Of a stretch of DNA of 64,000 bases, positions 1 through 36,200 are shown piece by piece; position 1 is the first letter of the stretch, and each line of letters opens with the position of its first letter. Location of the stretch: positions 36,048,867 through 36,112,866 of the forward strand of contig CAIIXF020000008.1 in assembly GCA_903813345.2 (NCBI GenBank), read 5' to 3'. Made by a program: the position numbers and the translations under genes. The notes under the pieces were generated by a model that saw only the letters and a program-made list of their open reading frames with translations, did not search any database and had not been told where the DNA came from. This stretch comes from Owenia fusiformis. Taxonomy: Eukaryota > Annelida > Polychaeta > Sabellida > Oweniidae.

Positions 1-134
1 TTACTTTCCAGCTGTACCTTAAATGTCCCGCAAAATCCCGCGAATTTAGTAGATGTCCCGCAAAATCCCGCGAATTTTGGGCACTGGGTCTAAAAAATCT
101 GTCCCGGGAGAAAATCTTTAGGGGTTGACAGTAC
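1..134 (+). mobile_element. Right-end fragment of an F-family element
   Basis: This stretch matches 34425-34544, the right end of element F, almost base for base. It has the same repeated words TGTCCCGCAAAATCCCGCG and the same terminus ending in GGGGTTGACAGTAC. The left part of this copy is outside the window. It is non-coding and shows that F belongs to a multi-copy family. Confidence 0.8.
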
Positions 135-1369
135 CATGGGCTTTCAACTAGATGTGCAAATACTAACCATGATCCAAGACGAGTCACCCTTGGCCTGGCT
201 TACTTAGTTTGCACAAACTTTAGCTATCTCCTGAGAGATATCTATCTATTTTAAAGATGGCTATGTGCAAATATACTAAGGCAATTTCCAAGTACAAGTT
301 TCCTTGAGATAATCTACATAGCACCATTTATCTTACCTTCTTCTAAGGCCACTGTATTATTGGCTAGAGACTCGAGTAACATTTATCCCGTTCCAGTCCT
401 GGTACGGGATAAGCTACCATAAGGAGTATAATAATACAAAGGAATAAAAATGAATACGCTGTAACTCACTCACATCGGATCCTATAACTCACTCACCCTC
501 CATACCATATCATTTCTCCACTATGCATTTCTCTTTGAAACTAAAACTTTAAAACTAGTGCCAAAACTTTTAAGGAAGTGACGTCATTAGATCTAAATTG
601 ATCATTTATTGTTAAATTTTCAATGTCGATGAAAATAATGAAAAAGGTCTGAAAGATACATAAATCAAATTTAATAAAATAAAGTAGAACATTTTGAATT
701 GCTAGTAAACATAGCCAATGGTTTAAAGCTTTGAAGTGGCGAGATAAAATAGATTTGAAAATGACGATAATAATCTTTTATATTCCAGTAAAAAAACGAA
801 CGACTATTATTCATGCAAGAGGTCGCACTTTTATAAATTCTCGCACCTCTCTTTTATAGAAGGCCTATAAAACAACTTATGATGATGATACATGAATATG
901 GCTGCCTCAATAACTCATGCACCAAGGGCCTTCCATTTATTTATATTTGACGGTATCCGCCGATGAGTGTCATTATGGCTTAGTGTGGTTTGTAGCCTAT
1001 GTACGCCGCGACGGAATCGGAACCTACATGTAATGAGCCGGGTAAATGAGATTGCATTCGGAGCTTTCTGGGGCATTTAGAATACGAAATTCCGACCGAT
1101 ATGGACTAATAAAAGAAAATGTAATTGGCATGTTTATCCAATATTGAATCACATGAACCCGTTTTTAATAAATATTAACTACTATTATACACATAAAAAG
1201 ATAAACGCTCTCCTCCAAGATTTTGATAATCCTAAATAAATCTAACTACGAATACAACTATTGTTATCAATTCCTAACCCCTTGTAATTGAGGAGAAAAT
1301 GGGACGTATGGAAACTTATTTTGTAAAGTCATTAAGGTCATTAATTTTATGATGATAATGTCACTTACA
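135..1369. other. Gene-free stretch
   Basis: No open frame with recognisable protein similarity and no structured repeat was seen. Sequence just after the F-family end begins with the word CATGGGCTTTCAACT, which recurs at about 2352, at 3036 and as a palindrome at 34072. It is probably the end of a small repeat family. Confidence 0.5.
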
Positions 1370-9259: not shown

Positions 9260-9296
9260 ATGAGCCTTAATGACTACATAGCTGGAGCAGTAGGAG
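9260..9296 (+). CDS. Carrier exon 1 (start codon)
   Basis: ATG begins MSLNDYIAGAVG and the exon ends in phase 1 at G/GTAAGG. This is the expected cytosolic or matrix N-terminus leading into transmembrane helix 1. The start was chosen because it gives the usual short leader of this carrier subgroup and there is no upstream in-frame extension with similarity. It joins exon 2 about 30 kb away to complete the glycine codon. Confidence 0.82.
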
Positions 9297-12200
9297 GTAA
9301 GGAATTAGTATAATTTAGAGCAAAATGGACAGACATCGTTCATATCATTAGAGTGTCTTTTGAAAATGACATTCCACCAAATTGGACTAGATTTTAGATG
9401 CTTGAGTAGGTCTGCACTGTAAGCAGAAAAGAAATACTGTAGATGCACTTAATTTGGCTCCCGTTTTAATTTGACAAATTAGCGGATTCAGAAAATCCGC
9501 TAAATTAAAAATCCGTCAAATTTCAGTTTGGAATTTTTGTCCAATGCACTTAAAAATTAAACTTCAGGGGACCCTTTTCGTCTCAACATGTCATCAATTC
9601 TACATTATTCCAAAAGAAATACAGAAAATATCATAACAATGACATAGGCATCTACAAAATTTAAACTTCAGTCCTGAATCTGCCAAATTAAATAGCCACC
9701 AATAATTGAAATTGAGCAAATCCATCAAATTAAGTAGCATTAAAATAAATGTATCTTCAGTACTTATAAAATGAATATGGCCTGTCTGTCAATCAATCAG
9801 AATTACAGGTTGGGAGCTTGTTTCCTCCTCAAAGTCTCCCTGGGCAACAATGTAATGGTCTGCACTCATCTTTTGTGACTGGAAGTGGGCTCCCCCATTG
9901 TATTTGCCTTAAACATCTCTATGACAACCAAGGTATTTCCAAATATGGACTTAAGCACGATGCAGATTTTCTAAGCAGTGCGCCAACTAGACACTCGACA
10001 CTCGCTAATTTGAGTGAAAACTTAAAAATTTGAGTAAGCATTTTATTTAGAAACATGTCCAATTGAAAGAATGTCATGTGACACACTACAAATTCTTGTG
10101 AAAACTTCAAAATTTGAGTTAGCATTTCAAAACATGTCCAATAGAGAGAATACCATATGAGACAGAGACTCTAATAATGAATAAATGATGTAAGTTCAAT
10201 AGCTCTTAATACATAACATATTTTTCTGATGAATTACATTTATGCAAACTTGTCTGAACCTCTCCCAGGGCTCAGTATTTGTCCATGTCATGAGTCAGTT
10301 CTAAATTTATATCATAAACCAATTATTGTGATGATGATCTTGATTCTAATTTTGATGTGATTAATGTGAAACTGCGTGCCTCGCCTCAATCATCAATTTA
10401 GTTCAATAAAACGTTGTTTTATAAGTGAGCTGCTTTTATAATAGACAGTGAAACCTGTATGTATTGAACATTGTTGGAGCTATAAAAAGTGTTCGGTGTA
10501 GGAAGGTGTTCACTACAGAGAGGGGATTTTATATATGAGTCAATGTAATATGTGTCTTGAAGTGGTGTTCACTAAATACAGGTGTTCACTAGAGAGAGGT
10601 GTTCACTAAGATAGGTTTTACTGCATCTGGTATTACATACCATACTTCAACTATCTTTATAATTGCGATCTTTTAATACAGTATAGAAATGGGTCAGGAG
10701 AATCTTTATGTTTTTTCCAAACAAGACTCCTTTTTCTTTCTTTTTCACCAACATGGAAAATGAGCATTTTGTCCCTCCCATACATCAGTGAACTCCCAAG
10801 CATTAAAGCAAGTGGGTGCAGCACCCACCTGAGATTTTGAAAATAGGCTTGCACCCACCTGAAAATCCATTTGGACCCACTTGAAAATGAGAAATGAAAA
10901 TTTGGCATATTTTGACTAATTTTTGTCTGAATTGTGAAAATGAGAATTTTACACCCACCTGAGAAAAAATCCTTGGGAGATAACTACAGAGCTGTCAAGT
11001 GTCCCGCGAATGGCGGGATTATCCCGCGAATTTGACCAAAATTTGGCTTATTCGCGTGTCCCGCAATGTCCCGCGAATTCCCGCAAATGACGGCTTTGAC
11101 CTCCGCGAATTTTCAAAATTGTAACAATCCCCGAGGCTAAATAATTGTGATTATATTGTGATATAAGAAGCTAAGCTTTTTGCACTTTTGAGGAGTCAAG
11201 TTTACCTAATTTGAAAAGTGCTGACGAACTCCCAGTGCATCAGATCATCGAAGACTGCTTTTGGAAGGAGCATATACACTGGGGGGTATCGTGATGCAAC
11301 AACACCGTGTTGTTGCATCAAGATGGCCAGACTTCCGGTGATAGATTTTCGTACGATATTTTGTTTTCCCAATTTAAACCCATTTCTAGGACGAGTTGCT
11401 CAATAATCATACACGTGCAGTTAGCTCATGATCTATATTTAAAAAAACTCTCATTAGTATGCATGTAGCATCATCAAGAAGCGAGAAATTCGCGGTTTTA
11501 ATTCCTCACTATTGATGCAACAACACCACTCTGTTTATTATCAATGATGCAACAACACCAATGTGCTGATGCAAAAACGCCAATATAATGTATCATTGAA
11601 TATCAAGAGAAACTGTTTTATGTTCTTTTTATAGGTGTTGGTCAGGACATGAATAAAACGCGTGAGTGCGTGGTTCATAAATGAAATGTATTTTGTTTGG
11701 TTCCTTAATGTATTTGTCTTTATCAAAGTTAAAAGGATATACAAGGTAAACTAAATACATAGGCTAAGTATTGAATCCCCGGGAGCCAACCTCATTGATA
11801 TTGTATCTGAAAAATAAAGATTATTCATTTTTTAAATTAAATCCCCTCGATTTACCATATCGTATGGAAATTGTTTACAAAGAACTAATATAACTAGACT
11901 TTGGAAATTGAACAACAAGTTCAATTTCAGACTCCAGATCTGGACTTTTTTAAGCCGAGTCATCCAGAAAAAGATGGATGGATGGATGGATGGATGAACT
12001 AGGAAGGAGGGATAGGACAGAAAAGGATGGAACGATAGGAGAGAATAGAGAAGAAAGATAGGATAAAATAGCAAGGAAGGATAAGATAGGAAGGATAGGA
12101 AGAAAAGGATAGGAAGGAAAGGATAGGAAGGATAGATAGATAGATAGGAAGGAAATGATATGAAGGATAGATAGGAACGGATAGGGATATAAAGGATAGG

Positions 12201-15200
12201 ATAGGAAGGATAGGATAGAATAAGAAGGAACGATAGGATAGAATAGTAGGATAGGATAGGAAGGATGGATGGAAGGATAGTTGGATTTTTCAACATTTTC
12301 TTCGCTACTGACTTTCTATCAGGATACCATCAGATCGATTTTTCTCGAAATTTCAAAACGCCATAACTTCCGAACCGGAAGTCGGATCGAAATTTGGTTT
12401 GCAGATTCTGAATCCTGAGAAAATTCTATTCTTCATTCATAACTCAAACGTTAAATTTGGAGAATTTTTTACATATCTTAAAAGTGGGTTAAAATACTTT
12501 CTGACGGCAAAAGGCCAACACTATAAGTACACTCGTCATGTATTCACAATTTCGAAGAATATAATTGAAGTGTAGTGTCAGAATCACAAAAATAAGGAAA
12601 ACTTTGAATTTGACCTAGATTTTGACCTAGACATTTTTGTGTCCAAATTTTGAAGCTAGATTGCTTATGAGGTACCCTTCATTTAAAGGCTTTCATTAAA
12701 TTAAGCTGTGCTCGGTCGTATATATGTCGTATTTTACACTTCAAAACGCAATAACTTCCGATGAGTGTTGGTTTAATGATATTGCAGTTATACAATGCTA
12801 TTATATAGAGGTTTTTTACTGAGAGGGAGTCAATATTGGTTTTATTCCGGGACACATTATGATATATCCCGAGGGCCCAGGGGGAATCTGGGATAACTGT
12901 ACCCCTATCAATTAACCTTTCCGGGAACTAAATCCTATTACCTACCTTTTTACTCAACCGGGGAGAACGAATCCAAAGAGAACAATACTTCTACATGTTC
13001 GCCGTGCAATATTTCCAATAGCTCTTCGTGTTTACCGAGAACGAAAGATGTTTGTCCACCATTTTGAATGATACTAACTGGTATCAGGGTCATCAATCTA
13101 TGGAACAGGGGTTTATGATAATAGATTGGGTAACTATAGCTTGCAATGGTAAAGGCGATTGAACTATGTTATAGAACAACTTCCAGTACATTCTGATATT
13201 TAAAAGTATAAATTTTTGAAAATACATAATAAAGAATCTTCGCCCGCAGGACGTGTATTTTGAATGCCTGAGAAAAACGCAAATGGGTACTGGCCCGGTG
13301 TTGCAATAGTAGCATTTAAAATTCTGTTCCTCTCGAGATTAATGGTCTTCTGAAATTATACTATTAATTGGTGTTGTTGCATCATTGCTCAAATCTAGAG
13401 GAGTGTTGTTGCATCTTCGGTTTGGTGTTGTTGCATCAATAGTGAGGAACTAAAACCGTGAACTTCTTGCTTCTTGATGATGCTACTTGTATACTAATGA
13501 GAGTTTTTTAAAATATAGATCGTGCGCTAACTTCACGTGTATGGTTATTGAGAAACTCGTCCTAGAAATGGGTTTAAATTGGGGAAACAACATATCGTAC
13601 GAAAATCTATCACCGGAAGTCTGGCCATCTTGATGCAACAACACGGTGTTGTTGCATCACGATACTCCCCAGTGATATAGTACACTTATAAAACTATGAT
13701 TTTGATCCAAATAACACCATAGTTGGCTTCTAGCATGCCGTTTGGTATCAAAATAAAGAGGAAGAGTGCAAATTTCATTTTAATTACGGAAATAGGGATG
13801 TATGTCACGATTAGTTCCAACGTTGGCCTTTTTACTACGCGTGTCACGGCCTTCATCTCAGAACTAAACAAATGTTAGCAAACGCGAGTTCCAATAAATG
13901 GACACTGATATCTCGAAAAGAAACCTGACTCCCCATAATTTGATGTAGAATAATCGAACCCTTATACGAATAGGTACATTTTGATATATAACACTATGGG
14001 GGTAAATGTTTCATAGTTGGTCACGAACGCCATAAGTGCAAAGTATTCACAAGAATTTTTGAATTTCGTGTCGGATTACGGTACTCACACCTAAAGCGTG
14101 GTTTTTGATAGTTTCAGAGCTGTCAAGTACCGCGAATTTGATCAAAATTAGTCTAATTCGCGTGTCCCGCGTCCCGCGAAGTCCCGCAAAATGTGGCTTT
14201 GACCTCCGCGAATTTCCAAAATTGTTGCAATCACCTATATTTTGATTATCTTATCTTATATAAGAAGCTAAGTTTTTGCACTTTTGAGGAGTAAAGTTTA
14301 CCTAATTTTAAGTACCTAGCATGCTGTTGTTTGGTATCAAAATAAAGGGGAAAGGTTCAACTTTCATTTTAATTACGAAAATAGGGATGTAGGTCACAAA
14401 TAGTTCCAACGTTGGCCTTTTTACTACCCGTGTGGCCTTCATCTCAGAACTGAGCAAATGTTAGCAAACGCGAGTTACAATAAATGTACGCTGATATCTA
14501 GAAAGGGTTTGTATAAAAAACCGGGTACCGGGTAGTAAATCCTCCATGCTGGGTTCAAACTTGGTACCCGCGGTACCCGGTCAAAAAAAACGGGTACCCA
14601 AAAAACGAAAAATACGAATATTTTTTTTTCAAAATTAATTTATTAACATTGAAAGAACATTTATACAATTTTTACATAATATACAATGGTTACATTGGTA
14701 CTTATACAGGAATACAGAACTTATTGGGGAATGTACTAAAAACCCTTCGACCTACGACCCTTCGACCCTACGACTTACTGGGTGTCAAGAATTTTTGGAA
14801 TATATTTTAATATTGAAAAACCCTTCGACCTCGACCTCTGATTTCCCAGTCCAGTTTACTAAATGATTACGTATAGATCTAGTTCCAACTTGAGCTCCCT
14901 GTAGGATTTAATCTACCTACAGCTTGTTAACTGTTAAAAATAGCAAGAACATAACTTCGACATATGAGTGTTACCTGATGAATGGGACCCTCACACGCCT
15001 TCCAAATGGTAGTAAACGAACTTTAGTGTAACTACATCAGCTTATCTTTCCGTCTGATCAACAATAAGTACAGTTATACAAGAAATGTAAATGAAGTGAA
15101 AATATTCCCAAAAATTTTCCGAAAGGCATGTCATTCCGGAAGTTATGATACGTTAGGGTGTCACTACGGTAAATCATTGAAAAATATTGAAAAAAATCGA

Positions 15201-18200
15201 GTCGAACCAAACTGCAGTTTTCACTAAAACGTGCAGACACAACAAAACATTACATAACATGGCATTACATGGCGAGGATGGTACGAGGCCCCTCCTGGTT
15301 TAAATCAGTTCTTATGCATATTTATGATTGAAAATGAGCAACTATTATAATTCTATGCACTGTTGGTCAATGTGTTACGGTTTTAGTAGCCCTTGCAGAT
15401 ATATTCCCTAAATTATTGTCACCTTAATATTTAACATGGCGAGGATGGCACGAGGCCCCTCCTGGTTTTAATCAATTCTTATGCATTTTTATGATTCAAA
15501 ATGAGCAAATATTATGTTTATATGCACTGTTGGTCAATGTGTTACCATTTTGGTAGCCCTTGCAGATATATTCCCTAAATTATTGTCACCTTTATATTTA
15601 ACATGGCAAGGATGGTACGAGGCCTCTCCTGGTTTAAATCGATTCTTACGCATATTTGTGATTAAATATGAGCAAATATTATGTTTGTATACACTGTTGG
15701 TCTATGTGTTACGATTTTGGTAGCCCTTGCAGATATATTCCTTAAATCATTATCACCTTTATATTTAACATGGCGAGGATGGTACGAGGCCCCTCCTGGT
15801 TTTACTCAATTCCTATGCATTTTATGATTCAAAATGAGCCAATATTATGTTTATATGCACTGTTAGTCAATGTGTTACCATTTTGGTTGCCCTTGCACAT
15901 ATATTCCCTAAATTATTGTTACCTTTATATTTAACATGGCGAGGATGGTACGAGGCCCCTCCTTGTTTTAATCAATTCTTATGCATTTTTATGATTTAAA
16001 ATGAGCAAATATTATGTTTATATGCACTGTTGGTCAAAGTGTTATTATTTTTGTAACCCTTGCAAATATATATGATGAAAAATGAGCAAATATTATGTTT
16101 ATATGAGCTATTGGTCTATGTGTTACTATTTTGGTAGCCCTTGCAGATATATTCCCTAAATTATTGTCACCTTTATATTTAACATGGCCAGGATGGTACG
16201 AGGCCCCTCCTGGTTTAAATCAATTCTTATGAATTTTTATGATTCAAAATGAGCAAATATTATGTTTATATGCACAGTTGGTCAATGTGTTACCATTTTG
16301 GTAGCCCTTGCAGATATATTCTCTAAATTATTGTCACCTTTATATTTAACATGGCGAGGATGGCACGAGGCCCCTCCTGGTTTTAATCAATTCTTATGCA
16401 TTTTTATGATTCAAAATGAGCAAATATTAAGTTTATATGCACTGTTGGTCAATGTGTTACCATTTTGGTAGCCCTTGCAGATATATTCCCTAAATTATTG
16501 TCACCTTTATATTTAACATGGCGAGGATGGTACGAGGCCCCTCCTGGTTTTAATTGATTCTTATGCATTTTTATGATTCAAAATGAGCTAATATTATGTT
16601 TATCTGCACTTTTGGACAATGTGTTACCATTTTGGTAGCCCTTGCAGATATATTCCCTAAATTATTGTCACCTTTATATTTAACATGGCGAGGATGGTAC
16701 GAGGCCCCTCCTGGTTTTAATCCATTCTTATGCATTTTTATGATTCAAAATGAGCAAATATTATGTTTATATGCACTGTTGGTCAATGTGTTACCATTTT
16801 TGTAGCCCTTGCAGTTATATTACCTAAATTATTGTCACCTTTATATTTAACATGGCAAGGATGGTACGAGGTCCCTCCTGGTTTTACTCAATTCCTATGC
16901 ATTTTATGATTCAAAATGAGCAAATATTATGTTTATATGCACTGTTAGTCAATGTGTTACCATTTTGGTAGCCCTTGCAGATATATTCCCTAAATTATTG
17001 TCACCTTTATATTTAACATGGCGAGGATGGTACGAGGCCCCTCCTGGTTTTAATCCATTCTTATGCATTTTTATGTGTGTAATTCAGGGAATATATCTGC
17101 AAGGGCTACCAAAATGGTAACACATTGACCAACTGTGCATATGAATATAATATTTGCTCATTTTGAATCATGAAAATGTATAAGAATTGATTAAAACCAG
17201 GAGGGGCCTCGTACCATCCCCGCCATGTTAAATATAAAGGTGACAATAATTCAGGGAATATATCTGCAAGGGCTACCAAAACCGTAACACATTGACCAAC
17301 AGTGCATATAAACATAATATTTGCTCATTTTGAATCATGAAAATGTATAAGAATTGATTAAAACCAGGAGGGGCCTCGTACCATCCTCGCCATGTTAAAT
17401 ATAAAGGTGACAATAATTTAGGGAATATATCTGCAAGGGCTACCAAAATAGTAACACATAGACCAATAGCTCATATAAACATAATATTTGCTCATTTTTC
17501 ATCATAAATATGCATAAGAATTGATTTAAAGGAGGAGGGGCCTCGTACCATCCCGGCCATATTAAATATAAAGGTGACAATAATTTAGGGAATATATATG
17601 CAAGGGCTACCAAAATGGTAACACATTGACAAACTGTGCATATGAATATAATATTTGCTCATTTTGAATCATAAAAATGCATAAGAATTGATTAAAACCA
17701 GGAGGGGCCTCGTGCCATCCTCGCCATGTTAAATATAAAGGTGACAATAATTTAGGGAATATATATGCAAGAGCAACTAAAATGGTAACACATTGACTAA
17801 CAGTGCATATGAATATAATATTTGCTCATTTTGAATCATAAAAATGCATAAGAATTGATTAAAACCAGGAGGGGCCTCGTGCCATCCTCGCCATGTTAAA
17901 TATAAAGGTGACAATAATTTAGGGAATATATATGCAAGGGCTACCAAAATGGTAACACATTGACAAACTGTGCATATGAATATAATATTTGCTCATTTTG
18001 AATCATAAAAATGCATAAGAATTGATTAAAACCAGGAGGGGCCTCGTGCCATCCTCGCCATGTTAAATATAAAGGTGACAATAATTTAGGGAATATATAT
18101 GCAAGGGCTACCAAAATGGTAACACATTGACCAACTGTGCACATGAATATAATATTTGCTCATTTTGAATCATAAAAATGCATAAGAATTGATTTAAACC

Positions 18201-21200
18201 AGGAGGGGCCTCGTGCCATCCTCGCCATGCTAGACTAAAGTGTCTGCGAGTTTTAAAAGAGTAGGTAGTAAAATCTGCAGCTTGTATAGTATGAAAAAAT
18301 CACAAAATTCAAGTTCTGGTATGAGGTTCCATATCCATCCGCCAAAAGGTATATAGTCCATTTAAAAACTTGTGGTTTTGTACTAAATAACGCCATAGTT
18401 GACTTCTAGGGTACCTAGTATGCCACTATTTTGTATCAAAATATAGAGGAGGAGTTCAACTTTCATTTAAATTACGAAAATAGCGATGTAGGTCAAAATA
18501 TAGTTCCGGCGTGAGCATGTTTACTACGCATTGCCTGTCATCTCAGAATTGAGGAAATGGTAGCAAACGTGAGTTACAATAAATGGACGCTGATATCTCA
18601 AAAAGTAACCGGACTCCCTATAATTTATTGAGATCAATCGAACCCCTATATGAACAGGTACATTTTGATATCTAACACTATGGGGGGGGGGTAAGCGTTT
18701 TATAGTTGATCACGAACACCATATGTGTAAAGTATTGTTCTGAATTTTCGAATTTGGTGTTGGATTACGGTACTCACACCTTCTGGGGTACATATCGCCA
18801 TTTTCGAACAAATTAGCCCATACAATGACTATATTTCTGCAATTCCCTATACATAACCTTCATCTCGACACTATATTTAACATAGGATTTGGGTCTCGAT
18901 TTTTAAATATCACTACGCCAACATAGGGACTTATTTTTAGGTAAAATCTCTGCTTCACCGATGAAAATTAACGAATAAAGTAGTTCCTGTTTACGGGACC
19001 ATATTCTTGAGATTTTTTTCTAAAAATGGCACATTTAAAAAGAACTTGGCCCCTGCTTTACATACATACCTCAAATGCCCACAGTATATACACTTAAACC
19101 TACTATACACACCATTGAAGTTGGCATAGCTTCGTTTTTAAAGTTTAAAAAAACACCCGGAAGTGGTATTTACCGTAATAACACCTTATATTACTGAACA
19201 TGGGTGAATTGGAATGTTTGTTCGATGGCATTATTACACCAAAAGTAGTGCGAAAATGGCCTTTTCACGTGTTGGCATAAAGTTTTGATGACATTTAAAG
19301 ACACAGGTCCTCCTTCCCGTACATTATCTCATGGAAATTGGCATACCAGCGCAAAGATCTTTGTTTTGTGGTGAAGAAAAGCTATCAAACATTGTCTTAA
19401 GAGCAGATTTATCTCCGTAATTCAACTTTTAGCATGGCGACATTGACCTTGAAAAAATATAATAGCCATTTGGGCGATAATAGGTGATTCAAAAGTAAAA
19501 TTAATGCTTTTTCGTAGTTTTACTTTGACCAAGCCTAGAAAAAAATCGAAGTGGTAAACCTACCCCCAAATTTTTTGACAAGTGTTCTAGATGATATCAA
19601 AGTTTAAGAAAATTTGTATATCTAGAAATATTTTAAAAATTAGTGCCATTATGGTGGGTTTGGGTGCTTTTTGCTCTCTTTTTTTAGCCCATTCCTGTGG
19701 TTGCCATGGCAACTATTAGGTTTTGGTAACCATGTCAACTTGATTTTTCAAGGACATCCGCCTGATAGTAGTTGGGCCAAGTTTGATGGAAAATGGGCCT
19801 TGTTTGATATCCTGGCAGTGAGGTTGATTGTGGCAAGTAGTAAAACGCCAAACAATGGTGGAGTCATACCTGATGCTTGGATGTTCGCATTTTATTTAGC
19901 TCTCGTAAAATGAACGAACAAACGTTCCATTTTCACGCATGTTCGGTAATATAACGTATCATAACTTCCGGAAATGACATGCCTTTCGGAAAATTTTTGG
20001 GAATATTTTCACTTCGTTTACATTTCTTGTATAACTGTACTTATTGTTGATCGGACAGAAAGAAAGATAGAAAATAGAAGGTCGAAGGGTTTTTATAAAA
20101 ATATATTTCAAAAATTCTTGACACCCTGTAAGTCGTAGGTCGTAGGGTCGAAGGGTCGAAGGGTTTTTAGTACATTCCACTTATTGGTTATAGATTTTAC
20201 TATTTCTAATTTTCCAAATTTCAAACTTGTGTTTAAACACTAGCTGGTTTCTATGGCATTTGCTCTCAAAATCTCCTTCATTGCTATAAAATAAAATTTC
20301 TTGTTCAGAAAACTTTAAATTTTGAGTTTTTACATATTCCTTTGCATTCGTACAATTGACAAATAAGTGTTTATGACTTTCTGCTTCAACATTGCATATT
20401 TTACAAATTCCATTTGACTTCTGAATTTTTTGTAATTTTTTTTCTGTCCATATGGCTCCATTAAAACATTTAAATATAAATTCTTTAACATTATTGCTAA
20501 TGTTACATTTAAACAAAATCTTGTAAAAATCTGAGAAATCCGTTTGAGCAAACTGCTCAGACCAATACTCTTCTGATTTGGATTCTGTTAAACTGTTTTT
20601 TACAAACCCTTTTCTTATTGATTGCACATTGATTTTCTGTACAGGAATACAATTAAAATATATTTTGCTTTCACTGTTTTTTAATGCCTCAACCTTGATT
20701 CTGTCTAACTTGTTAAAAACTCCTTTAAGTAAATTGTATTGAAGAAAAGTCTGGCCATTAAAACCTACTTTTTGCCCAATTTGATCATAGCTTAATAGTT
20801 CATTGTTTACGTTACATACATCATTTATTTTATATACACCTTTTTGATGCCAGTTATCAAAATATAAAGGATTGTTCTTGTACAACAAGTCTTTGTTATT
20901 TGATATATATGGACTACTTTTAACTGAATTATACATAATCCATGTTTTCAACACATCTGTCCAAAATGAGGACTTAATTCTATCTAGTCCTTTTACCTGA
21001 TTAAATTCAACATTAGACAGTAAAATAGAAAAATCTTTACAAATTTTGTCAATAAGATAGGTTGGGAGTTTTTTCCAGTTTGCTTTGTTTCTATCAAGTA
21101 GAAGTTTAATCCATTTAATTGCAAAAGCATCTTGAAAATGTTTCACATCTATCATATTTAGACCTCCCTTTGCATTGCCCTGTATCAATATATTTCTTTT

Positions 21201-24200
21201 AATACATTCTACTACACCTTTTACATCTTCTTCTTTATACACACCTTTGTTACCTGACCAGATATATTTAAAAAACAAACTATTTATCCGTTTAATAATC
21301 TTATCTGACAAAATAAAACTTTGCATAATGTATCCAAATTGTGAGAGCATTAGTGATTTTACGAGAGTAATTTTACCAAACATGGTTAAACATCTACCTG
21401 CCCATCTTTTTGTCAATATTCTCATCTAATTCAACCACCTTATTGGTTGTGCAAAATGTTACGCCTAATATTTTAATCCTATTATTTGGGAAAATATTCC
21501 ATTTGATGTTTACTGGTTTTTCAACACAAAATTTTTTATTGCCTAACCATATTGCTTCTGATTTCTGTTTATTTAATTTTAACGCAGATATATTTGAAAA
21601 GGCATCAATAATATTGATTGCCTCTTTGACAGATGCAACATCTTTAAGTAAAAGTGACATATCATCAGCGTATTGAACTAGTTTAATTTCATCTGTTTCA
21701 GATACTACAATACCTTTCACATTATTAGTCTGTCTTATTTTACATTCCACTAGTTCACAGCATAAAATAAAGCAAAAAGCAGATGCAGGGCACCCTTGAG
21801 ATAAACCTGACTTTAGTGGTATCCACTCGGAGAGCCAACCTCCAAAATTAATGCAGCTTAGCACATTTGAATTAAGTGTTTTTATCCATTTGATAAAATC
21901 AGGACCAAAACCAAAAAATTGGAATGTGTCATACATTAATTCTTTATTTAAACTATCATACGCACGGGAATAATCCAGTGCTACAAGTACACCTTCATCG
22001 TCATTGTTACATAAATGTTCTATTACATCATCAATAAGTCTTAAAGCAGTAGCTGGTGTGCGACCTGGTATATATCCACATTGATCATGACTAATTATTT
22101 TTCCAATTACTTTTCTGAGCCTATTTGCTAATGATTTTGCTAAAATTTTATAATCAGTGTTTGTTAATGATATTGGTCTCCAACTTGGTAGACACTCCAT
22201 TGGCAGACCTTTGCCTTTATATAATAAAGTAATTACTCTTTGTCTTTGGGAAGTAGACAACTGTCCATTATTAAAACAATCATTTATAGCTGATACATAA
22301 AGTTCATTTATCTTGTTCCAAAAACATTTATAAAAACATGTAGTGAGTCCATCAAGACCTGGACTTGAAGTATTTGACATATTTTTGAGTGCCTGAGTAC
22401 ATTCAGCTAAAGTTATTTGTCCTTCACAAGATTGCATTTCCTCTTCATTTAAAGAGGGCAGTACTACTCCATGTAAATATTCATTCAGTTTGTTTCTGGA
22501 GTAATTACTGTTTACACTAAAAATATTTTTATAATAGTTTACTTGAGCACCCATGATATCATTGGGATTGGTGTACAAATTATTTTCTACTCTACATGAT
22601 TTCATTATTTTACTCTTTCCTCTGCTTTTTTCTAAACCTAAAAAATACTTGGAACTTTTTTCACCTTCTTCAGCCCATTGAACTTTTGCCCTTATTTGGG
22701 CACCTCTGGTTTCTACAGCTAAAATGTTATCATACATGAGTTTTAAGTGATTTGCCTGGTTTACCAGGTCTACATTTTGGGGATCTTTTGTTAACTTAAA
22801 GGGACAATGTGCGTAAATGAAGTCTCACTTTTGATCTTCATAGTATTTCCGATGGATTAATAAGTACCTAAACTTTCATTTGACACCAAAAACAGCTCAA
22901 ACAGACCACATCAGAGTTGACACTAGATCATGAAAAAATATTTTTGATCTATCAACTTATAGATGTCAAGTTTTTAGCAATGCCATAAAAAGATGGCATC
23001 GTTGTTTGCATTAATTTTCCATTCATTTCTGATAGGATTTTCAACCATATGCCATCTTTTAGTCCAAGAGTTATTTAAAAACATACACTTTGTGAAAAGT
23101 GGTAATTCACTTCTTTTGATCTCTGAACTTCAAATGCTGTTTTCTATGCGAGTAATTTTTTTTTCACTTCAGTATTGACCCAAATTAAAGTTTTTATCAT
23201 ATTTGATTGACTGTGTGAGTGACATGTCTCCAATAATATTTTGTCCCTTTTTCTTCTAAAATAAGCGCATTGCCTGTTTAATTGAAACATTTTTCAAAGA
23301 TTTATTGATACCTTCTAAATTTTGTCGTTTCTCTTTAGCTTTAGTTTTTCCATATTGAATACTGATTGATTGTACTTTGGATTTAAAATACTCCCATTTT
23401 TGTAATGATTGTAATTCTTCTAACTGGGTGATTTCTGTGACTAAATTGTTTACCATGTTTACATATTCTATATCTTTTAAAAAACTATCATTGAATTTCC
23501 ACAGGGGTGAGTTTTCTTCTGTGTTTAACGTCGCAAACTAGAGCGATTTGGACAATGAGCTTTCGCCCACGATAGTGCCCACCAAGATGTGGCGTGATAA
23601 CCTCGCGCGTATCAAGATTGATCCATTGGATTCTCGAAAAAAATTGTACTACCCTTGAGAAAATTACTTCTTATTTCATTATTATTGGGAGATATATAGA
23701 ATGTAATATACGAGCATGGAGCTATTGAAATTGGGTTTCTAAATCATTAACATTCGTAATATAGTATTCAACTATTACACAAATATCATTGTTTAAAGAC
23801 GAGAAATCAAATTCGCCGACATGTTTGTTTACATTGACAACACTTACTTTAACGATAAATTAGACCCCTTTAACATGAAAAAATAATTTCAATCTTTTTT
23901 GATTCAGAAAGCCCACATCATAAGCTTATTTTTTCGCTAAATAATAATAGTATTCATCTCCTAGTTTTCTTCATCCAGCCAATAACAAAATTATTTTTCG
24001 ATTTTCCGGCATTTTGTATTGGTCTTTGACGGAGAATTAGAAGTACCTTCTTTAGGTTGAATCGGCCAAAACATACTGTAATACATTGGAAACAATCACA
24101 ATCGCGATAACATGAATGAAATTCATCATAATATTCAAGGTACACGACGAAAAATATCAATTGCGTACATTATCGGACAGACTTTTCGTTTGCCGTCAGG

Positions 24201-27200
24201 TTCGTTTTTCACAATAGGGTTGTCCATTGGATGCGTTTTCGTCTAGTGTGTATATGACGTTTTTACCGGGGATAAACAAGGAGTATGAACTAGATGGATC
24301 CATTGGTCTCTCCAGTCTTTTGAATGAAAAGTGAAATATCAAAGGATGTAACTTATTACTATTCTGGATGAGTATATGATGATTTTTTCTATATTTAACT
24401 GATCCGCCCTTTATTCTCAGGTTATCCAATATCCATCTACACTCCACTCCAAGTTTTGCAAACTTCCCTATTAGATTACTCTATGGTTGATTTTTAACAT
24501 AACATGCAATGAACACTTTAAATAAGCAATGCGAACACTTTAAATAAGGGTGCCATTGTTTACTAGCTAAGTCTTCAGTTCAATTTGTGGATATTCTCAT
24601 ACCTCATATGTTATCTTAAGGGATATGTTTCTTGAAAAAGCATAGTTTTGACTTTGGAGACATATAACTTTATAAAACCTGAAAAATTATATCAATTTTT
24701 TTTAAAAAATAAAGTTTGTTAAAACATTTTTGGTTTACATCTGGATGACAATTTTTAAAAATGAATTTAATTTGCCATCAATTTGCAATCTTTTGTATAT
24801 AAAATGAGAAAAAATGAAGTTATACTAGGAAATTATATCAGTTTAGATTTCCAGCCCAAGCAGTTGTTCAAATTAAAGCCAAACTTTTGAAGGGGAGTGT
24901 AAGTCTTGGCAGCACTTTGGTTTTGATTATCATCTGATTTTACAAGCTGATTTTACTATCTTGTCAGTTGTCATTGTCACTATATCTCTGTTATAATGAT
25001 GTAAGTGTAAAAACAATCATTTTACAAGTTTTTAAGGTTAAAGTTCCACTTCTTTATTTTTCTTTATTTTGATTATTCCTCACATAGGTAAAGGTAGAAT
25101 CAGATCAAGCAACAAACAATCTTTACTTATATTGTTTCAATTCTAGAATATATTTGGGTTGCATATGTATCTCACACTTTATTCAAGGAAAACTAAGATT
25201 ATTACATACAGAGTGAGCCAAAAAAAGGTAACCCAAACAAATGTATGTAAATAACTCAGTCATTCAGCATGGGCTCAAAATCATATTTGGCACAACTAAA
25301 CCTTAATCAATGTCATTGGTCTGTCCCTTAGAGTCACGATTTTATGGTCATCTACAAAACATGGTCCAAATGCCGAAATGACTGACTGGACATAAATCCC
25401 ACCAGCTTTTTGTCTTTGGGTCTATTTTTTCTACACTAACAACCCTTGAAACATTGAAACAAGAGATAAGAAGGAAGATGAGAGCCATAACACAAAATGT
25501 TTATGCTTGTGTTGTGAACAAGACTACGCCCAATATGTTCAAGTTGGCCTCCAGATTTGACGCCCATATTTTATGGCATGTTTTGTAAAATGGCCATAAA
25601 ATCATGACCACTAGAGATACAACCAGAACAACGGCAACGCCAAAGCGTAGCGAATACCATCGAACACCCATGAATGGCATTTTTACAAACAAAGTATATA
25701 GCAAAAATGCCAGCCATTTTTCAAAATGGCCGCCTTCTACCAAAAGTGTCATTAGACCATGTGCCATACTTATAGTATTCACATACCAAATATGAACAAA
25801 ATCACTCCACTACTTTTCAAGTTATAGTAATACTTTAAAATGGTGGCCATTTTTCAAAATGGCCACCATCTACCAAAAGTGTCATAGGACAGTGTGTCAT
25901 GCTTATAGTATTCACATACCAAATATGAACAAAATGGCTCCACTACTTTTTGAGTTATAGTAAAATATGTTTAAATGGTGGCCATTTTTTAAAATTTTAC
26001 ATATTGCACCTAAATTACTGTAAATTCGGCACTAAAATGGCCGCCATTTTGAAAATCAGCTTTCAAGCAGACATTCTACTCCCATAGGGTATATGTGTAC
26101 AAAATATGAACAAAATCGGGCCAACGGTATTTGAGTTATTGCCCGGAGGGACTGACGTATGTACGTACGGACGGACGGACAGACGGACGGAGGCGCTCCC
26201 TATATCCCTCCGAACTTTGTTCGATGGGATAACCACTGAAAACTTGGTATACTAATACATTGGACAAGGCTTGTTGTGCAAAATATGACACTAAACCCAT
26301 GCAAGGTGACTGAGTTATTGAGATTTGTTTTGGTTACCTTTTTTGGCTCACCCTGTATTAGAGCTCTTTTTTCAGTTCTATGTCTCTTCTTTGTCACTTT
26401 GATGTTTATTTTAATTCATATTGTTCTAAGTCCAAGTGTTACATATACTACACTAGTAGATGATATTTTTTTATCCAAGGTGTATTTAGGAAGATACTGT
26501 GAATATGTTTCTTCTTGATTTTCGGGAGATTCCTGTCATCTATTCATTCCCCAGTTCCCTGATACCTGAGCGATGAGGGATAATGGAGCATAATGTGTTG
26601 TTATCTGAAAGCAAATGAGGATTATTTAACACATGTAGGGTAAAAGAAAGTCATAGAAAATATTGGAAGACCAAGTAAAACAGACCAAGATTTTTCATTT
26701 AATTTATTAAATATAATCTAGAAATTATTGTTTTTAGTGATTTTTAGTGGTAGCCCCTTTATATTTATGGTTAAAAAATCAAAACATGAAGTTCCTTGTA
26801 ATCATCAGTATTTTATTACATATTTTATAGCTTTAAATAATTTGCTGGGAAATTAATTCAATTTAATATTAGAAATTATATATTCTAAATAAGAACATTT
26901 ATTAAGGATGGTGTGTCAGCATTAGCAGCTGACTTGGTTCATTCCTCAGGCCTAGTACACATTACAGGTACAAAATTGAAGTTACAGGATTTAAAATAGT
27001 TTTATGGCACACTCGTAAATATAGTACACATCTCACACATGTACAGGGTAGACCAAAAAAGTCCACATTTTTGATTTTGTAATATCTGCTGATGTGTTCC
27101 ATAAATCAATAAATTATATATCATTAGGAAGATAATAGAATTTCCAACAAAATGATTCCTAAAATATGAATGGCTATTGGTGACTCTATGATAATTTCTA

Positions 27201-30200
27201 GATGTGCTGAACTTGTTTCATAATATTATATTGCTTAATCAACATTTTTAGGTTTTTATATACCAAGAAAAAGTATCGGGGTTGTTTGTTATCATTGTAT
27301 AGCTTTAAAATAATCATAGAATCTATTTTTATGCATTGCAGTTTGTTATTAAATAGATTGTTAGAGACATTGATATTTGCAAAGAAAATCAATTGAAATT
27401 TTTCCATAACCCGTAATATATTGAATACATTTCCATTATTTCCTCTTCTGGAGCATATAATTGCATTGTTTGCCATTTAAAATCTCAGTTAAGCTTGGTT
27501 ATATAAGTAAAACATCATTATTGACCAAAATTCTACCGATGATTACAAGGAGTGTTCATGTTATTATTTTTAAATTATACAATATTATCAAGTTTCATAG
27601 CTTCAAACAGCTTTGGAGTCCAAGAGATGCCATGTTGTCAAATAAAATATAAGCTTGAAATTACCGCATAGTAGTCAGTAGAAGACTGAGATGCAGCTCT
27701 ACAACAGTGGCATTTCCCTCAGGAGTCAGTCTCATACATTCCCACTCACACAGATGTATAAATTACGCACGTAGATGTCAGCATTACTGAAATAAATTGA
27801 ATTTGATATAAGAAATTACATATTCTACTAGTAAATGTATACAAATAATATTTAATAATGATGTTGTGGCAGTATTCAGGTGTCACAGTAAAAAAAACAA
27901 AATCTGTCCAAAATTTGGATAAAATCTCATGAAACATACACAAGAGCAGGATTTAGTACATGTATTTAGTAAGTCTTCTTGAAATTAAATTGAAAGGCCT
28001 CACATACCGCATTTCGAAAACATTGGTCTACTATTGGAGTACTACACGCATAATAAAGCCTAAGCTCTAAGCCAAAGTGACTGGAACTTTATATGGGCAT
28101 TTAATATACAGGGTGTCCAGAAAGTATGGGGGCCCCCCTAGGCAGACATTTTTCAATGTCTCCATAGTATGTGCCATATATCATTTGAAAGATCATCCAA
28201 AATTACACCGATCTGCCAAGTATCACGGTTGAACTCAAAATGGGAAAAAGTTCAAAAAAAATTAAAGTCAGTTTTACACCAAAATAATAGTCGGTGTGTC
28301 TCCTGGAGTCCCTAAGCCATGTTAATGGCAGCAATGCTTTCCATATATGACCTTAAACGTGCTTCAAATAGGGATTTGGCATTTTTTTATCCTCATAAAA
28401 CTTTTTTAAAGCATTCTAGAAGAGTTTCCCTGGAGTATCTACCCCCAACTTCCTCTTTTTAGAACTCAATATCCATCCTTTTGTCGACAATAGCTCTCAT
28501 ATTTTCGGTCATATTCAGGTCAGGGCTGTTACCAGGATACTGAAATGAACTATATGTTTAGCTAAACACTTAGTTTTGAAATGCCTGTAACTATTTACCT
28601 TTTGTGAGTTGAACCATGATACTTGGCAAATTAATGTAAGTTTGGATAAGCTTTAAAATGATATATGACACATACTATGAAGACATTGGTATATGTCCGC
28701 CTAGGGGGCCCCCATACTTTCGGGACACCCTGTACAGGGTATCAAATAAATATGTTCTCCCCCTTAACTTTATGATCCACATAATGTTGGGTAACTTTTT
28801 TGTCTGCATGATATCTGAATTGTTCCTTAGCACAGTAAAACTATCTATCATATTTATTTGACACTCTGTACATTCGATTTATCTAACATTATGTACATAC
28901 CTCGAAAATCACATTTTTCTGCAACATGGCAGATCTCAATCATTGGCATAACATTCAAAGATGGAGTCAACAGGTAAAGAGGCATGGTTGCTAGTCATGT
29001 CCATTCTCACTCGGTAGCTGGAAGAAAATAAGTGTACTGTACATTATTGATAATGAATAATATTGATCATTTAGAAGGTATAAAAAGCTTTTATATGTGT
29101 AATTTGAATGAATGTTGCACCCATCAATGTTGCACCCATCAATTTAGACCCAATAAAATACAAAATAAAACTAGTGAACTGGTAAAAAAATGAGCTTGAG
29201 ATCATATAATACATGTATTGTCATATATTGTATTATTATATCTTTTCATGTGGTATTTAAACGCCATATAAGGAAATCAAATAATCCGAACCGGACTACA
29301 GACCCACATTTGAGGTCTTGGGGGTACAAATGTTGATGGATGAGAAAATCTACTTGGAGTTTATCTTAGCTATTACATACACATTAAGCTGAATACATGA
29401 ACCTTAGAAATAAACTTTTCAAGTGGTGCATGTCTGAACTCTGAACACCATATAAGGAAATCGAACAATCCAAACCAGACTGGGGAGTCGGGGACCCACA
29501 TTTGAGATCTCGGGGGTACAAATGGCGATAGGTGAGAAAATATACTAGGAGTTATGCTTAGCTAATACACACATACTAAGCTGATTATATGAACCTTCAG
29601 AAATAAACTTTTCAAGTGGTGTCTGAACACCATTTAAGGAAATCGAACAATCCAAACCAGATTACATGGATTAGGGACCCACATTTGAGGTCTCAGGGGT
29701 AAAACTGGCAATGGATCAGAAAATATACCAGGAGTTATGCTTAGCTATTTAACACACATTAAGATGAATATATGAACCTTCAGAAATAATTTTTCATATG
29801 GTGTATAAACACCATATAATGAAATCGAACTATCCGAATTGGACTAGGGACCCACATTTGAGGTCTCGTGGGGTACAAATGGCCATGGATGAGAAAATCT
29901 ACCAGGAGTTATGCTTAGCTATTTAACACACATTAAGCTGAATATATGAACCTTCAGAAATAATCTTTCATATGGTGTATAAACACCATATAAGGAAATC
30001 GAACTATCCGAATTGGACTAGGGACTCACATTTGAGGTCTCAGGGGTAAAACTGGCGATGGATCAGAAAATCTACCAGGAGTTATGCTTAGCTATTTAAC
30101 ACACATTAAGCTGAATATATGATTGAACCTTCAGAAATAATCTTTCATATGGTGTATAAACACCATATAATAAAATCGAACTATCCGAATTGGACTAGGG

Positions 30201-33200
30201 ACCCACATTTGAGGTCTCGGGGGGTACAAATGGCCATGGATGAGAAAATCTACCAGGAGTTATGCTTAGATATTACACACACATTAAGCTGAATATATGA
30301 ACCTTCAGAAATAATCTTTCATATGGTGTATAAACACCATATAATGAAATCGAACTATCCGAATTGGACTTGGGACCCACATTTGAGGTCTCGGGGGTAC
30401 AAATGGCCATGGATGAGAAAATCTATCAGGAGTTATGCTTAGCTATTTAACACACATTAAGCTGAATATATGAACCTTCGGAAATAATCGTTCATATGGT
30501 GTCTAAACACCATATAAGGAAATCGAACAATTCGAACTGGACTAGGGACCCACATTTGAGGTCTCGGGGGGTACAAATGGCGATGGATGAGAAAATCTAC
30601 CAGGAGTTATGCTTAGATATTACACACACATTGACCTGTTTTCATGAACCCTCAGAAATAAGCTTTTCACAACTTTTCCTCAAAATCCCTTATCTAGAGA
30701 CGCTGAAAACTAACAATTTGAACTGCAAATGACACCAAAATCCACCAACACTTTGGTTGATAATTCCGTCAAAATTTGATGAATAATTTTCAAAGTTGCT
30801 CAAATGTACACCTGTTATGTGCTCCAAATGTGTACCAAAGAAAAAATTTCTAACCTTCTAGCAAAGTACTGAAAATTAAGAAGACGCTGGGTCTCAGGAA
30901 AAGCACCTGTTTTTATTCATCAAAGTTTGAGAGTCTCGATCAGTAAGAAATCGCAATATTTATGGATCCTTTTTCATACCACGTCAAAGCTGTGAATCTC
31001 AGGATTCCAGTGGCATTCCTCGTTTTAAACTTACCTTAATAATACCGAAGATTGTCCATGAAACGTGCAAAAAGGCTGCATTGTCGTGACCCGTTCAGAC
31101 ACTGCAGCGCGTTCCTCTATCCTGTTAGTTCAAGGTCAAAACGTTGCTATAGTGACGTTATAGTACGCGCGCGCTAAACCCGGGTATCTTGGAATGAAGG
31201 TGCAAAACGAATTTTGCGCAAAAATAAAAAATTGAAAAAATGATCGGGCATCAAACTTGAGGGTTGTGTCATGTGGGCAACATGGTGGTCGAAGGATTTC
31301 CCGGGAGTAATTGTACCCCTGAATTTCCAATATGATGGCCCTCTTTTAAATTCACCGAAATCTAAGTGCATGTATATACCTTTATGATCTGAGTTTGGTA
31401 CATTTAATATATCACAGGATTCAACATATTCAAAACAGGTTTCATTCGTAAAAATAAAATCAATTTTTCTCATTATTGCTTTTGATTTGTGCCTCCATGT
31501 ATATTCTTTACAGTCGTCATGTTGTAATCGCCAAACATCGTTTAGTTTTAAACTTTCTACCATATTACTAAAGGCTTTGATTTCAATTTGACTGTGCATT
31601 TCACCACATATATTGTCTAATTTACTTAATGTACAGTTAAAATCACCTCCAATCAAAACAGATGATGTAAGTATATTTTTTTGATTTATAGTTCTGGTTA
31701 CCTTTTTGAAGAAGTCAATTTTTTCCTTTGTTTGGTTTGGAGCATAGATATTAAAAATATACAATGGCTTATCAGAATATTGACATGAAATACCTAAAAT
31801 TCTTGACTCAGCATGTATGACTTGCATATTTGATATTTCTGTACATTTATCGCTAATTAAAATCATTTCACCTTTACTGTGCTTTGTTCCAGCATTATAA
31901 AACATTTGCCCTTTCCATTCTTTTTCCCATGTTTTTGCTACATCATCTGTAATAAATGATTCTTGTATACAGCAAATATCTATTTTATGCTTTTTCAAAA
32001 ACTGAAAAAAAGTGAACCTGGTTCTTTTATTCCTTAATCCCCTTACATTTACACTTAAAACATTTACCATTTAATGTAAATAAAAGGTATATAATATAAT
32101 CCACAGTCCTGCAACAACAGTGTGTTGCAATTCACAGTCCATGTCCATAGCAGTAGGTTTTCCATAGATATGCTTGTTATATGAAAATAACAAATTAACC
32201 ATTGTTGTCAATGTCTAGTATGATAGGGGATCCAAGCTTATTTTTCTTTGAGTCACTGTTCATTTCAAGGGGGCTTATATCTTTTCTCTTAAGATGCACT
32301 TTAAGAGAGGATTTTTGCTTAGTTGTAGAGTCACAACTGGCATTATCTGAGATGTTCTTAGCGGGGGTTGAAGTATTTTGGTGGCACTCAGCCAAGAACT
32401 TATCTGCCATTTTCATGGCATCTGGTGAAGATATTGAGCTATCTTCTGGTTGAAGGGCACGTGTTATGAGCTTCTCTGCTATTTTGGCACCACTCTCTGC
32501 ACTCTTAGTTGTTGGTTCTTGCGGCTTTGTCTGTTCCTGGACCTTCTGACGACCTGTTGTTTCCATCAGACATGCCGATTTCCGGTGTCCATCAATACCA
32601 CATTTCCAGCAGGTGATTTTTGGCTTCGTTGTTTCATCATATGTTCTCAGAAGACATTCTGACTTGCGATGACCTTCCAAACCACATTGGAAGCACTTTG
32701 GTTTTGATCTTTTAGGGCAGTCATTGATATTATGATCGCCTCTGCAATGTGGACAGTTGATTTCTTGTCCATCGTGATATATTACTATGTCTATTTCGAT
32801 TAGCTCTGGAGGATTGAAGGGGTTGGGTATTGTGTAGTCTAAATATCTAGGTTGCGATTTGACTATTTTTCTCACATAACAAAACCTATGCCCTGTGAGT
32901 ACACTGTGTCGTGTTCCATTAGTCGCTCTTCTGCTGTGGAATTTCACGTCTGAGGTACGTCTGAGGCTCAATTTCCGAGTTGGAAACATGAAGTGGTATA
33001 CCATGTATTGATACTCGTGTGGAGTTTCGTCCTGCTCCAAACGATGCGCTGGGTGTTGCGAAGTAGTCACTTATTTTGAACTGCTTTCCATTGACGCATA
33101 AAGAGCCAAGAGATAATAAGTTGGCTTTTGTTCCAAGACTGTCAGTATAAATTATGTAGGAGCCACTGAATAGTTGCACACCAATTATATTGTCTCTTTT

Positions 33201-36200
33201 TATTACATCCGGTCGAATTCTATCATCAGCCTGTGAAATAAATATGAATATATAACATAATTAGATTATGAGAAAACGTGTAAGATTTGTTTTGAATTTG
33301 CAAAAATGTATGTAACATGATTCAAAATTGAGCTAGAAGCTTCAAATAAAAAGCATATTTTAAGGCACTTTTCTTCCTCTATCGTTATGGCCATATTTTC
33401 ATTGGTTATGGGGGGGGGTGCGATTGCACCATCGCACCCTCTCCTGGCTACGCCTATGACATTGTAAGACATAACAATTTACAATTCAGTGGACATTTTG
33501 TCATAAATTGGGATAACTTAAATTATGATTAATAATCAAAATCTTACACGTTGCATCATGCAAATTAACACACGTCACCTCTCTGCTAAAGCAACGATAG
33601 CTATTTACAGATTTAAATTATAATCAAAACAATTCACGTACCAACATACGAACTATTGAAAATAGAGTAAGATTGATTTGTCTTGTTTTTCAAATCGTCT
33701 TACAATGTCATTGGCGTAGCCAGGAGGGGGTGCGATCACACCCCCCCCCCCCCTTCATTACCAATGGAAATATGACCAAGATGATAGAGGAAGAAAAGAG
33801 CCTTAAAATGCTTTTTATTTGAAGCTTCTAGCTCAATTTTGAAGGAAGTTACATACATTTTTGTAAATTCAAAACAAATCTTACACGTTTTCTAATGATC
33901 TAATTATGTTGTGTATTCGTATATTTCGTTTTTTGGTTTTTTCGACCGGGTACCAAGTTTGAACCCAGCATGAAGGATTTACTACCCGGTACCCGGTTTT
34001 TTATACAAACCCTATCTAGAAAATTAACCTCATTCCCTATAATTTGATGTAGATTAATCGAACCCCTATATCATGGGCTTTCAATTGAAAGCCCATGCCT
34101 ACAGTATATGAATAGGTACATTTTAATATATAACATTATGGGGGTAAGCGTTTCATAGTTGGTCACGACGCCAGAAGTGCAAAGTATTGTTCCGAATTTT
34201 TGAATTTCGTGTTAGATTACGGTAATCACACCTGAAGCATGGTTTTTGTTTTTGATAAATTACAATAAAGTTTAATAATATTCCTATGCGTATTTTGTGA
34301 AATTGTGTTGACGTTTATTTAAGTTACAATGTAACGGTGCATTATATTTGATTAATCAGTATCTGAAAGTTTGATTTAAGTACTTCTACACGCTTTTAAA
34401 TCTCCTATTAGCGCAATCACGCAAATCCCTTAAATGTCCCGCAAAATCCCGCGAATTTAGTAGATGTCCCGCAAAATCCCGCGAATTTTGGGCACTGGGT
34501 CTAAAAAATCTGTCCCGCGAGAAAATCTTTAGGGGTTGACAGTACTGTAACTACATGATATCACGTTTGCTTAAAATGACAATAGATTCATGTATTTCAT
34601 GCATAAGTAGTATAGTTCATTGCACTATTCTTGGCATCTCTAGTGTCGTAAGTGGGCTTATCCATTATATTTGCCATCTCTATGACAACCAAGGTATTTC
34701 CAAATATGGACTTATGCATGATGCAGATATTCTAAGCAATGCGCCAAATAGACACTCGACACTCTCCAATTTGAGTGAAAACTTAAAAATTTGAGAAAGC
34801 ATTTTATTTAGAAACATGTCCAATTGAGAGAATGTCATATGACACGCTACAAATTCAAGTAAAAACTTCAAAATTGGAGTAACATTTCGAAACATTTCAA
34901 TTGAGAGACATTGAGACAGACACTCTAATAATGAATAAATGATGTAATTTAAGTTCAATAGCTCTTAATACATAACATATTTTTCTGATGAATTACATTT
35001 GTTTATGTAAACTTGTCTCCCAGGGCCAAGTATTTGTCCATGTCATGAGTCACACCTTAATTTATATCATAAACCAATTGTGATGATGCTCTTGATTCTA
35101 ATTTTGATGTGATTAGTGATTATGAAACTGCGTCCAACGGCATGTTCTAATCAGTGGACTGGCCCCAAGAAAAGATGGACTGGACTCTGGGCCATCTTTT
35201 AGACATTGCTTCACAAAATTACTAAAAAGTGGACTTAACCCTCTATACTCCATTATGGGGCCACACTTTAGGTTTTCTGTAAGTATTTTGACTAAAAGAT
35301 GGCCTCATGCAATACATATCTAAATTTGAATTTAACTTATCAATATTATTATCCCAGCAAATGAAGTTCGATAGGGATGTCACGAAGCCCTCCATTTATC
35401 AAGTCCTTTTCCCAAGCACAATAAAAAAAAATATGTGGATTTTTAAATTCCTTTCAAATTAAAAAGATGGAATTTAGAAGGTTTGACCACAAAGGGTCAA
35501 GCACAGACACACATAACATGAGTAGCGGGACGAGTAGACGGTGTTTTTCTAAAATATAGCTTTGTTACATGCAAGAGGAAGGCATTTTAGTGTAGATTGG
35601 AGAGCAGGGGCGTAGTCAGCTTTCAGTCAGGGGGGTACGATCGCAAAATTTTTGGGTTTCAGTCAAGTTGGTGGATAATCGTGGCATAAGCAAGGCAAAA
35701 CAAAGAAATAAGATCTGTTTTGAGCAAGAAGCTTAAAAAGCATTTTAAAGCTCTTTTCTTCCATTATCTAATGGTTCTATTTTTATTGGTTATGGAGGGG
35801 ATGCGACCCATCACATTCCCCTCTGACTATGGAGAGATTGTGTTACCCGTAAGCAATTCACTCACAAGGAATGGAATATTGTTTCATATAATATATATTT
35901 GTTCTCTCATTAATATGCTACTGATCTCCAGATGGCAGGTATTTATATTAATCCAGTTGTTTCTTCCATTCTAACTTATTAACAAGAACACAAACGTGTA
36001 CAATATGTCCATACCGATGGGTGGTCCTTGAGTTTTTATTCCCAATGCCCAATTCTTTATAATCAGTTGAAAATACAAGATTTTAGGTAAAAAAAATCAA
36101 AATGGCAACATCAGCCAGAATGCCCAAAAACTAATCAGTTTGAGATTTTCATACTAAGAATCACATCTGAAAAGTTGAATTCGATCTTTCAAATGGTTCT

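Follow-up and report, generated by a model that had tools for sequence, protein, structure and literature searches.

A real nest of transposons, 23.6 kb long, lies in what its flanking exons suggest is intron 1 of an intact-looking mitochondrial-carrier (SLC25) gene. Most probably (about 0.85) it consists of recent insertions stacked in a tolerant intron, partly from pre-assembled parts, and its outermost member, a chimera of F1 and the composite F2-A, entered as a unit. The window, i.e. the whole stretch of 64,000 nucleotides that was analysed (C8:36048867-36112866, in a genome of 498 Mb and 525 contigs), contains zero N bases. An initial annotation had placed the nest at 10981-34553, limits that are borne out, and had read an order of insertion from target duplications: one element F in a repeat copy, E and A in F, a LINE in A, B, D and C in the LINE, and MITEs in C. 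It had also proposed that flanks and excised units be aligned to other genome copies; this comparison confirms the nest and overturns the order for A and for the MITEs in C. Nesting alone misorders the events here, because two layers were already packed inside their hosts before arrival. Coordinates are given in Table 1.

Table 1. Positions of the nest components, the outer insertion site and the predicted carrier exons in the window
Feature	Positions	Strand	Description
Carrier exon 1	9260-9296	+	MSLNDYIAGAVGG; donor GTAAGG
Dispersed repeat P2	10374-10986		F insertion site near its end
TAACTA target duplication, left copy	10981-10986		
F1	10987-14114	+	5' part of a ~1.2-kb family with CAGAGCTGTCAA ends; interrupted by E; 3' tail missing
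E	11277-13674		ends CACTGGGG...CCCCAGTG; 252-bp inverted arms; ATATA 11272-11276 / 13675-13679
F2-A composite	14115-34547	+	net 22-bp deletion just inside 5' end
A	14505-34012		~0.88-kb MITE in F2; duplication TATCTAGAAA 14495-14504 / 34013-34022; inherited with F2
L1-like LINE	14622-33239	-	endonuclease, RT, zf-RVT; 12-bp duplication AAATAYGAATAT 14610-14621 / 33240-33251, one mismatch
B	14728-20178		GGAATGTACTAAAAACCC-ended; 9-bp duplication ACTTATTGG
G	15199-18293		3.1 kb, in B; 167-bp satellite repeats in two opposed blocks; AAAAAATC 15191-15198 / 18294-18301
D	22800-23277		MITE; TTAA 22796-22799 / 23278-23281
C	23502-31321		7.8 kb; ends CAGGGGTG...TACCCCTG; 8-bp duplication AATTTCCA; 174-bp tandem array 29244-30666
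TA-flanked MITE in C	25209-26355		CAGAGTGAGCC...GGCTCACCCTG; inherited
TA-flanked MITE in C	28109-28732		CAGGGTGTCC...GGGACACCCTG; inherited
TAACTA target duplication, right copy	34548-34553		
Carrier exon 2	39663-39706	+	intron 1 = 30,366 bp, phase 1
Further carrier exons	43349-43429, 44028-44136, 44954-45091, 47275-47777		

Eight insertions are flanked by target duplications, the two copies of the LINE's differing at one base. Six of the inserts (E, the LINE, B, C, D and G) are absent, at the same base, from host copies elsewhere in the genome, and every host copy that reaches a site is without the insert, except for a changed E site in one of nine F1 copies. Removal of an insert thus rebuilds the host sequence, as the initial annotation had reasoned (for E in 8/9 copies, and likewise for the LINE, B, C, D and G), and the duplications AATTTCCA, ACTTATTGG and TATCTAGAAA are present at the joins it had named. 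With 40 matches scored per search, the window alone spans the junctions flank/F1, F1/E, F1/F2, A/LINE, LINE/B, LINE/D, LINE/C and B/G; the other scored matches end within about 28 bp of each of them. Chance matching is rejected as the source of the element edges, since most of them are defined by independent copies; for the right ends of C and G, that definition comes only from the empty host sites.

What had been taken for a single element F is a chimera, in which the 5' part of the F1 family is fused to the sister family F2 at 14114/14115. Elements of the F family run from CAGAGCTGTCAA to TTGACAGTACTG, and other copies printed with both flanks have a perfect 6-bp duplication in 8 of 9 cases, with one mismatch in L038; a tenth copy (L005 with L031) likewise fits. 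In the window a single 6-bp TAACTA duplication brackets the 5' end of F1 and the 3' end of F2, so that one duplication is common to the termini of two different elements, as in a macrotransposon. Movement of that end pair as a unit is therefore the simplest explanation. The fusion is spanned by one of the 40 matches scored from 1663 candidates, namely the window itself, and no donor or second copy of the chimera is among these 40. F2 starts with its own terminal bases directly after the F1 bases TAGTTT, and the net 22 bp lost inside its 5' end in the window are present in 13/13 other F2 copies. All four fetched F1 loci (L001-L004) are without E and without A; three of them have an end-to-end length of 1.19 kb, and another five F1 copies span 1.07-1.18 kb. 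F2 copies contain A, and the three measured are ~1.65 kb (L030), 2.03 kb (L005 with L031) and 2.25 kb (L022 into the window). The earlier estimate that the DNA of F itself comes to less than 2 kb holds (~1.6 kb by coordinates).

F2-A is an amplified composite, because the F2/A junction is whole in 39/39 other scored matches (40 scored of 1877 candidates). A therefore did not enter F at this locus, as had been supposed; that event is ancestral. Moreover, among the 39 other A matches, at least 20 adjoin a listed F2/A junction. A also exists as a stand-alone element: an A-type MITE with the 9-bp duplication CTAATTGGA is found at 58857-59389. A second F2-A composite ends in window positions 1-135 (L022 1149-3301), ~11 kb before the nest. 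Regarding the MITEs said to lie in C, they are indeed inside C, and their entry too is ancestral: both TA-flanked elements, junctions included, are inherited in 5/5 other C copies.

The remaining layers entered as had been claimed. The LINE went into A, where its site is empty in 13/13 A copies and the join is spanned by one of 40 scored matches. It has an AP-type endonuclease, an L1-type RT and a target duplication of the variable-length kind (12 bp here), which make it L1-like. More specifically, Exo_endo_phos and RVT_1 domains are found, its ORF1 zinc-knuckle match is weak and below the Pfam cut-off, and its RT is closest to L1 ORF2p among solved structures (E 5e-52; R2 at 4e-12). Compared with L009 and L010, the LINE has lost a net 29 bp near 21411, which breaks the ORF2 frame. 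B, D and C all entered the LINE. The B site is empty in 10/10 LINE copies; the D and C sites are empty in the 4/4 copies that reach each, the other 6/10 falling short. The 9-bp duplication of B has been seen at both ends in 7 of 8 copies. Together with those of C (8 bp here), F (6 bp) and D (TTAA), it suggests candidate superfamilies by the usual superfamily rules: B may be Mutator-like, C and F hAT-like, D TTAA-type. E entered F1, as the exact empty site in 8/9 F1 copies indicates; in L002 the site is changed, with three bases different. E is unique to this F1 copy, and its entry may predate the arrival of the chimera. Its 5-bp duplication is ATATA in the window and GTATT in L034, and 39 other copies match its left end at 97-100%.

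The list of layers had been incomplete, missing the satellite-bearing G inside B. G has an 8-bp duplication, AAAAAATC, and its site is empty in 8/8 B copies. Its left end occurs at two other places in the genome; the right end was not found at those two. Within B, positions 18326-18781 resemble F (77-84% to parts of F1 and of F2); the three other B copies that were fetched first share this segment, which is thus an inherited piece. At G000:C1 ~9686343-9697787, B and A are each matched three times at a spacing of exactly 4,689 bp, suggestive of a tandem array holding both.

The site that the outermost element entered is a copy of a dispersed repeat, P2, with a local paralogue at 38406-39008 (90.7%) and dispersed copies 89-95% identical to its part 10900-10986. 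When the flanks of F are joined, they match the local paralogue at ~38915-39100 (87% over 170 bp), i.e. a paralogous empty site. In a genome search for an allele without F, this paralogue (87%) was the sole match across the join. The claim that F entered a repeat copy therefore stands as to the site, with the corrections that F is not one element and that its duplication is the 6-bp TAACTA.

The carrier gene is predicted from six exons with GT/AG borders and matching phases; the spliced product of 303 aa would contain three Mito_carr repeats in one frame (E 2e-59). Exons 1 and 2 were located by motif searches; a two-sequence HMM listed two short carrier exons, but only below its inclusion threshold. 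Since carrier exons and splice signals are intact, intron 1 is probably still removed by splicing, and the in-phase predicted joins across the six exons agree with the earlier statement that the intron joins the carrier exons correctly. Downstream, at 51724-52290, lies another exon of the carrier type, with 44% identity over 148 aa, and the first exons of such a second gene were not seen in the carrier exon searches, HMM and motif searches included. A 396-bp repeat (94.7%) links 41462-41856 in the first carrier gene with 50651-51043 before the second carrier exon. A Ras-family coding match is present at 60756-61646 (Pfam, E 7e-11), and Rfam gave no match in the window at gathering scores.

Regarding the ages of the layers, private substitutions in the window number 3/724 in F1, 4/863 in F2 and 3/862 in A (together 10/2449, 0.41%), 17/4828 in the LINE (0.35%), and 13/5913 in C and 1/2348 in B (together 14/8261, 0.17%). 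The simple repeat of E, the tandem array of C, the G insert in B and all gaps were excluded from these counts, as were positions at which fewer than three other copies were available; L027 (F2/A) and L011 and L013 (LINE), which are divergent or short, were left out. In five tests with uncorrected p values, the outer elements plus the LINE differ from B plus C (p=0.018) and the LINE from B (p=0.011); the other contrasts gave p=0.69 (outer vs LINE), p=0.20 (LINE vs C) and p=0.13 (B vs C). Other copies have private rates as low and higher (F1 0-1.26%, B 0.09-1.64%), and the measure depends on the copies sampled, because other family copies range as widely. The age gradient from outer to inner layers is thus weak. 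E and D run against it and look older than their young-looking hosts: E has 32/1902 private substitutions and, of six fetched copies, even the closest is 3.4% different, and the best genome match of D is 95%. Neither insertion can be dated by how far its nearest copy has diverged, likely because the families are diverse, and the proposal to date each layer by family divergence would mislead.

The best order obtained is F1/F2-A chimera into the dispersed repeat, LINE into A, B, C and D into the LINE, and G into B, where E may have entered F1 before or after the chimera arrived and B, C and D are placed as one step. That an inner insertion is later than the arrival of its host holds by junction uniqueness for the LINE, B, C, D and G, but is not so for A, inside F2, or for the MITEs inside C. 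Local depth is accordingly F, LINE, B and G; A and the MITEs are cargo.

How the chimera formed is a separate question, for which a rescue is possible at slightly less than even odds: F2-A, pre-nested cargo damaged just inside its 5' end, would have borrowed the 5' end of the sister element it had entered and been macrotransposed as a chimera into the intron. In the preferred reading, F2-A would have inserted elsewhere into an F1 element, after TAGTTT; the outer F1 5' end would then have been used with the F2 3' end, and the chimera would have entered the dispersed repeat as a single unit with one 6-bp duplication. The LINE would have followed, then B, C and D, then G. The chimera could also arise by repair or recombination. 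Possible, though less likely, is that F1 came into the intron first and then received F2-A, after which recombination between the two similar 3' ends, or faulty gap repair, removed the F1 tail at this locus. This would fit the start of F2 directly behind the F1 bases, and the F2-type 3' end of the window is 93-95% like F1 3' ends, which also favours it. Against it, 5/5 sites near the 3' end that separate F1 from F2 are F2-type in the window, the last one 17 bases from the terminus, which leaves a very short stretch for a crossover; this comparison used 7 F1 and only 2 F2 copies, left out L037 and L004 (different or cut 3' ends) and did not count an edge column.

Two other explanations concern the nest as a whole. 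It is most improbable that the order first proposed is right as written, with one F that received E and A here and a C that received its MITEs here. Target duplications or inverted ends are in place for each of these steps; the composite junction (39/39), the MITEs shared by 5/5 C copies and the F1/F2 fusion speak against it. That order is refuted for A and the MITEs; it stands for the LINE and the three elements B, C and D inside it, and also for E except in its timing. An assembly artefact at repeat junctions is equally hard to credit. The parts are multi-copy and mostly very similar to other copies, a setting for misjoins, but eight insertions have duplications on both sides (one mismatch in the LINE's), the window is free of N, and precise empty sites exist elsewhere. 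Recent stacking in a tolerant intron, with the chimera arriving as a unit, thus remains our preferred reading.

Our results provide an example of a persuasive nest chronology that was wrong at two layers until other genome copies were compared. Family divergence could assign far too great an age to E and D, which sit in young hosts. Should the stack be as young as its few private substitutions suggest, shorter intron 1 alleles may still segregate. If the rescue is true, macrotransposition between MITE subfamilies would be a natural way for nests to travel as units. Were such cases common, nesting order and family divergence would both misdate insertions genome-wide.

Nested transposons are a known kind of structure; what is useful here is the chimera, together with the inherited layers, and no priority is claimed for the chimera. 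Our literature search on nested elements in introns returned nothing that we judged close. In the maize Ac/fAc macrotransposons described in PMC9910405, which lists Huang and Dooner 2008 among its references, the ends of two related nearby elements bracket a larger mobile unit. F1/F2-A is likewise bracketed by the ends of two related elements, whereas its movement is inferred from a single fossil with a 6-bp duplication. Clusters with an order inferred from nesting are established, for instance in the maize adh1 region, which the REANNOTATE paper cites (PMC2672092); both there and here elements sit inside elements and the order is read from the nesting. Unlike those nests, the present one is made of DNA transposons and one LINE, lies in an intron and has two layers of inherited cargo. 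According to PMC6887750, the mariner MITE MER6 carries a SINE domain, one element having been amplified inside another. F2-A is also a mobile element amplified within another, but it joins two DNA-transposon-like elements, and A occurs alone as well.
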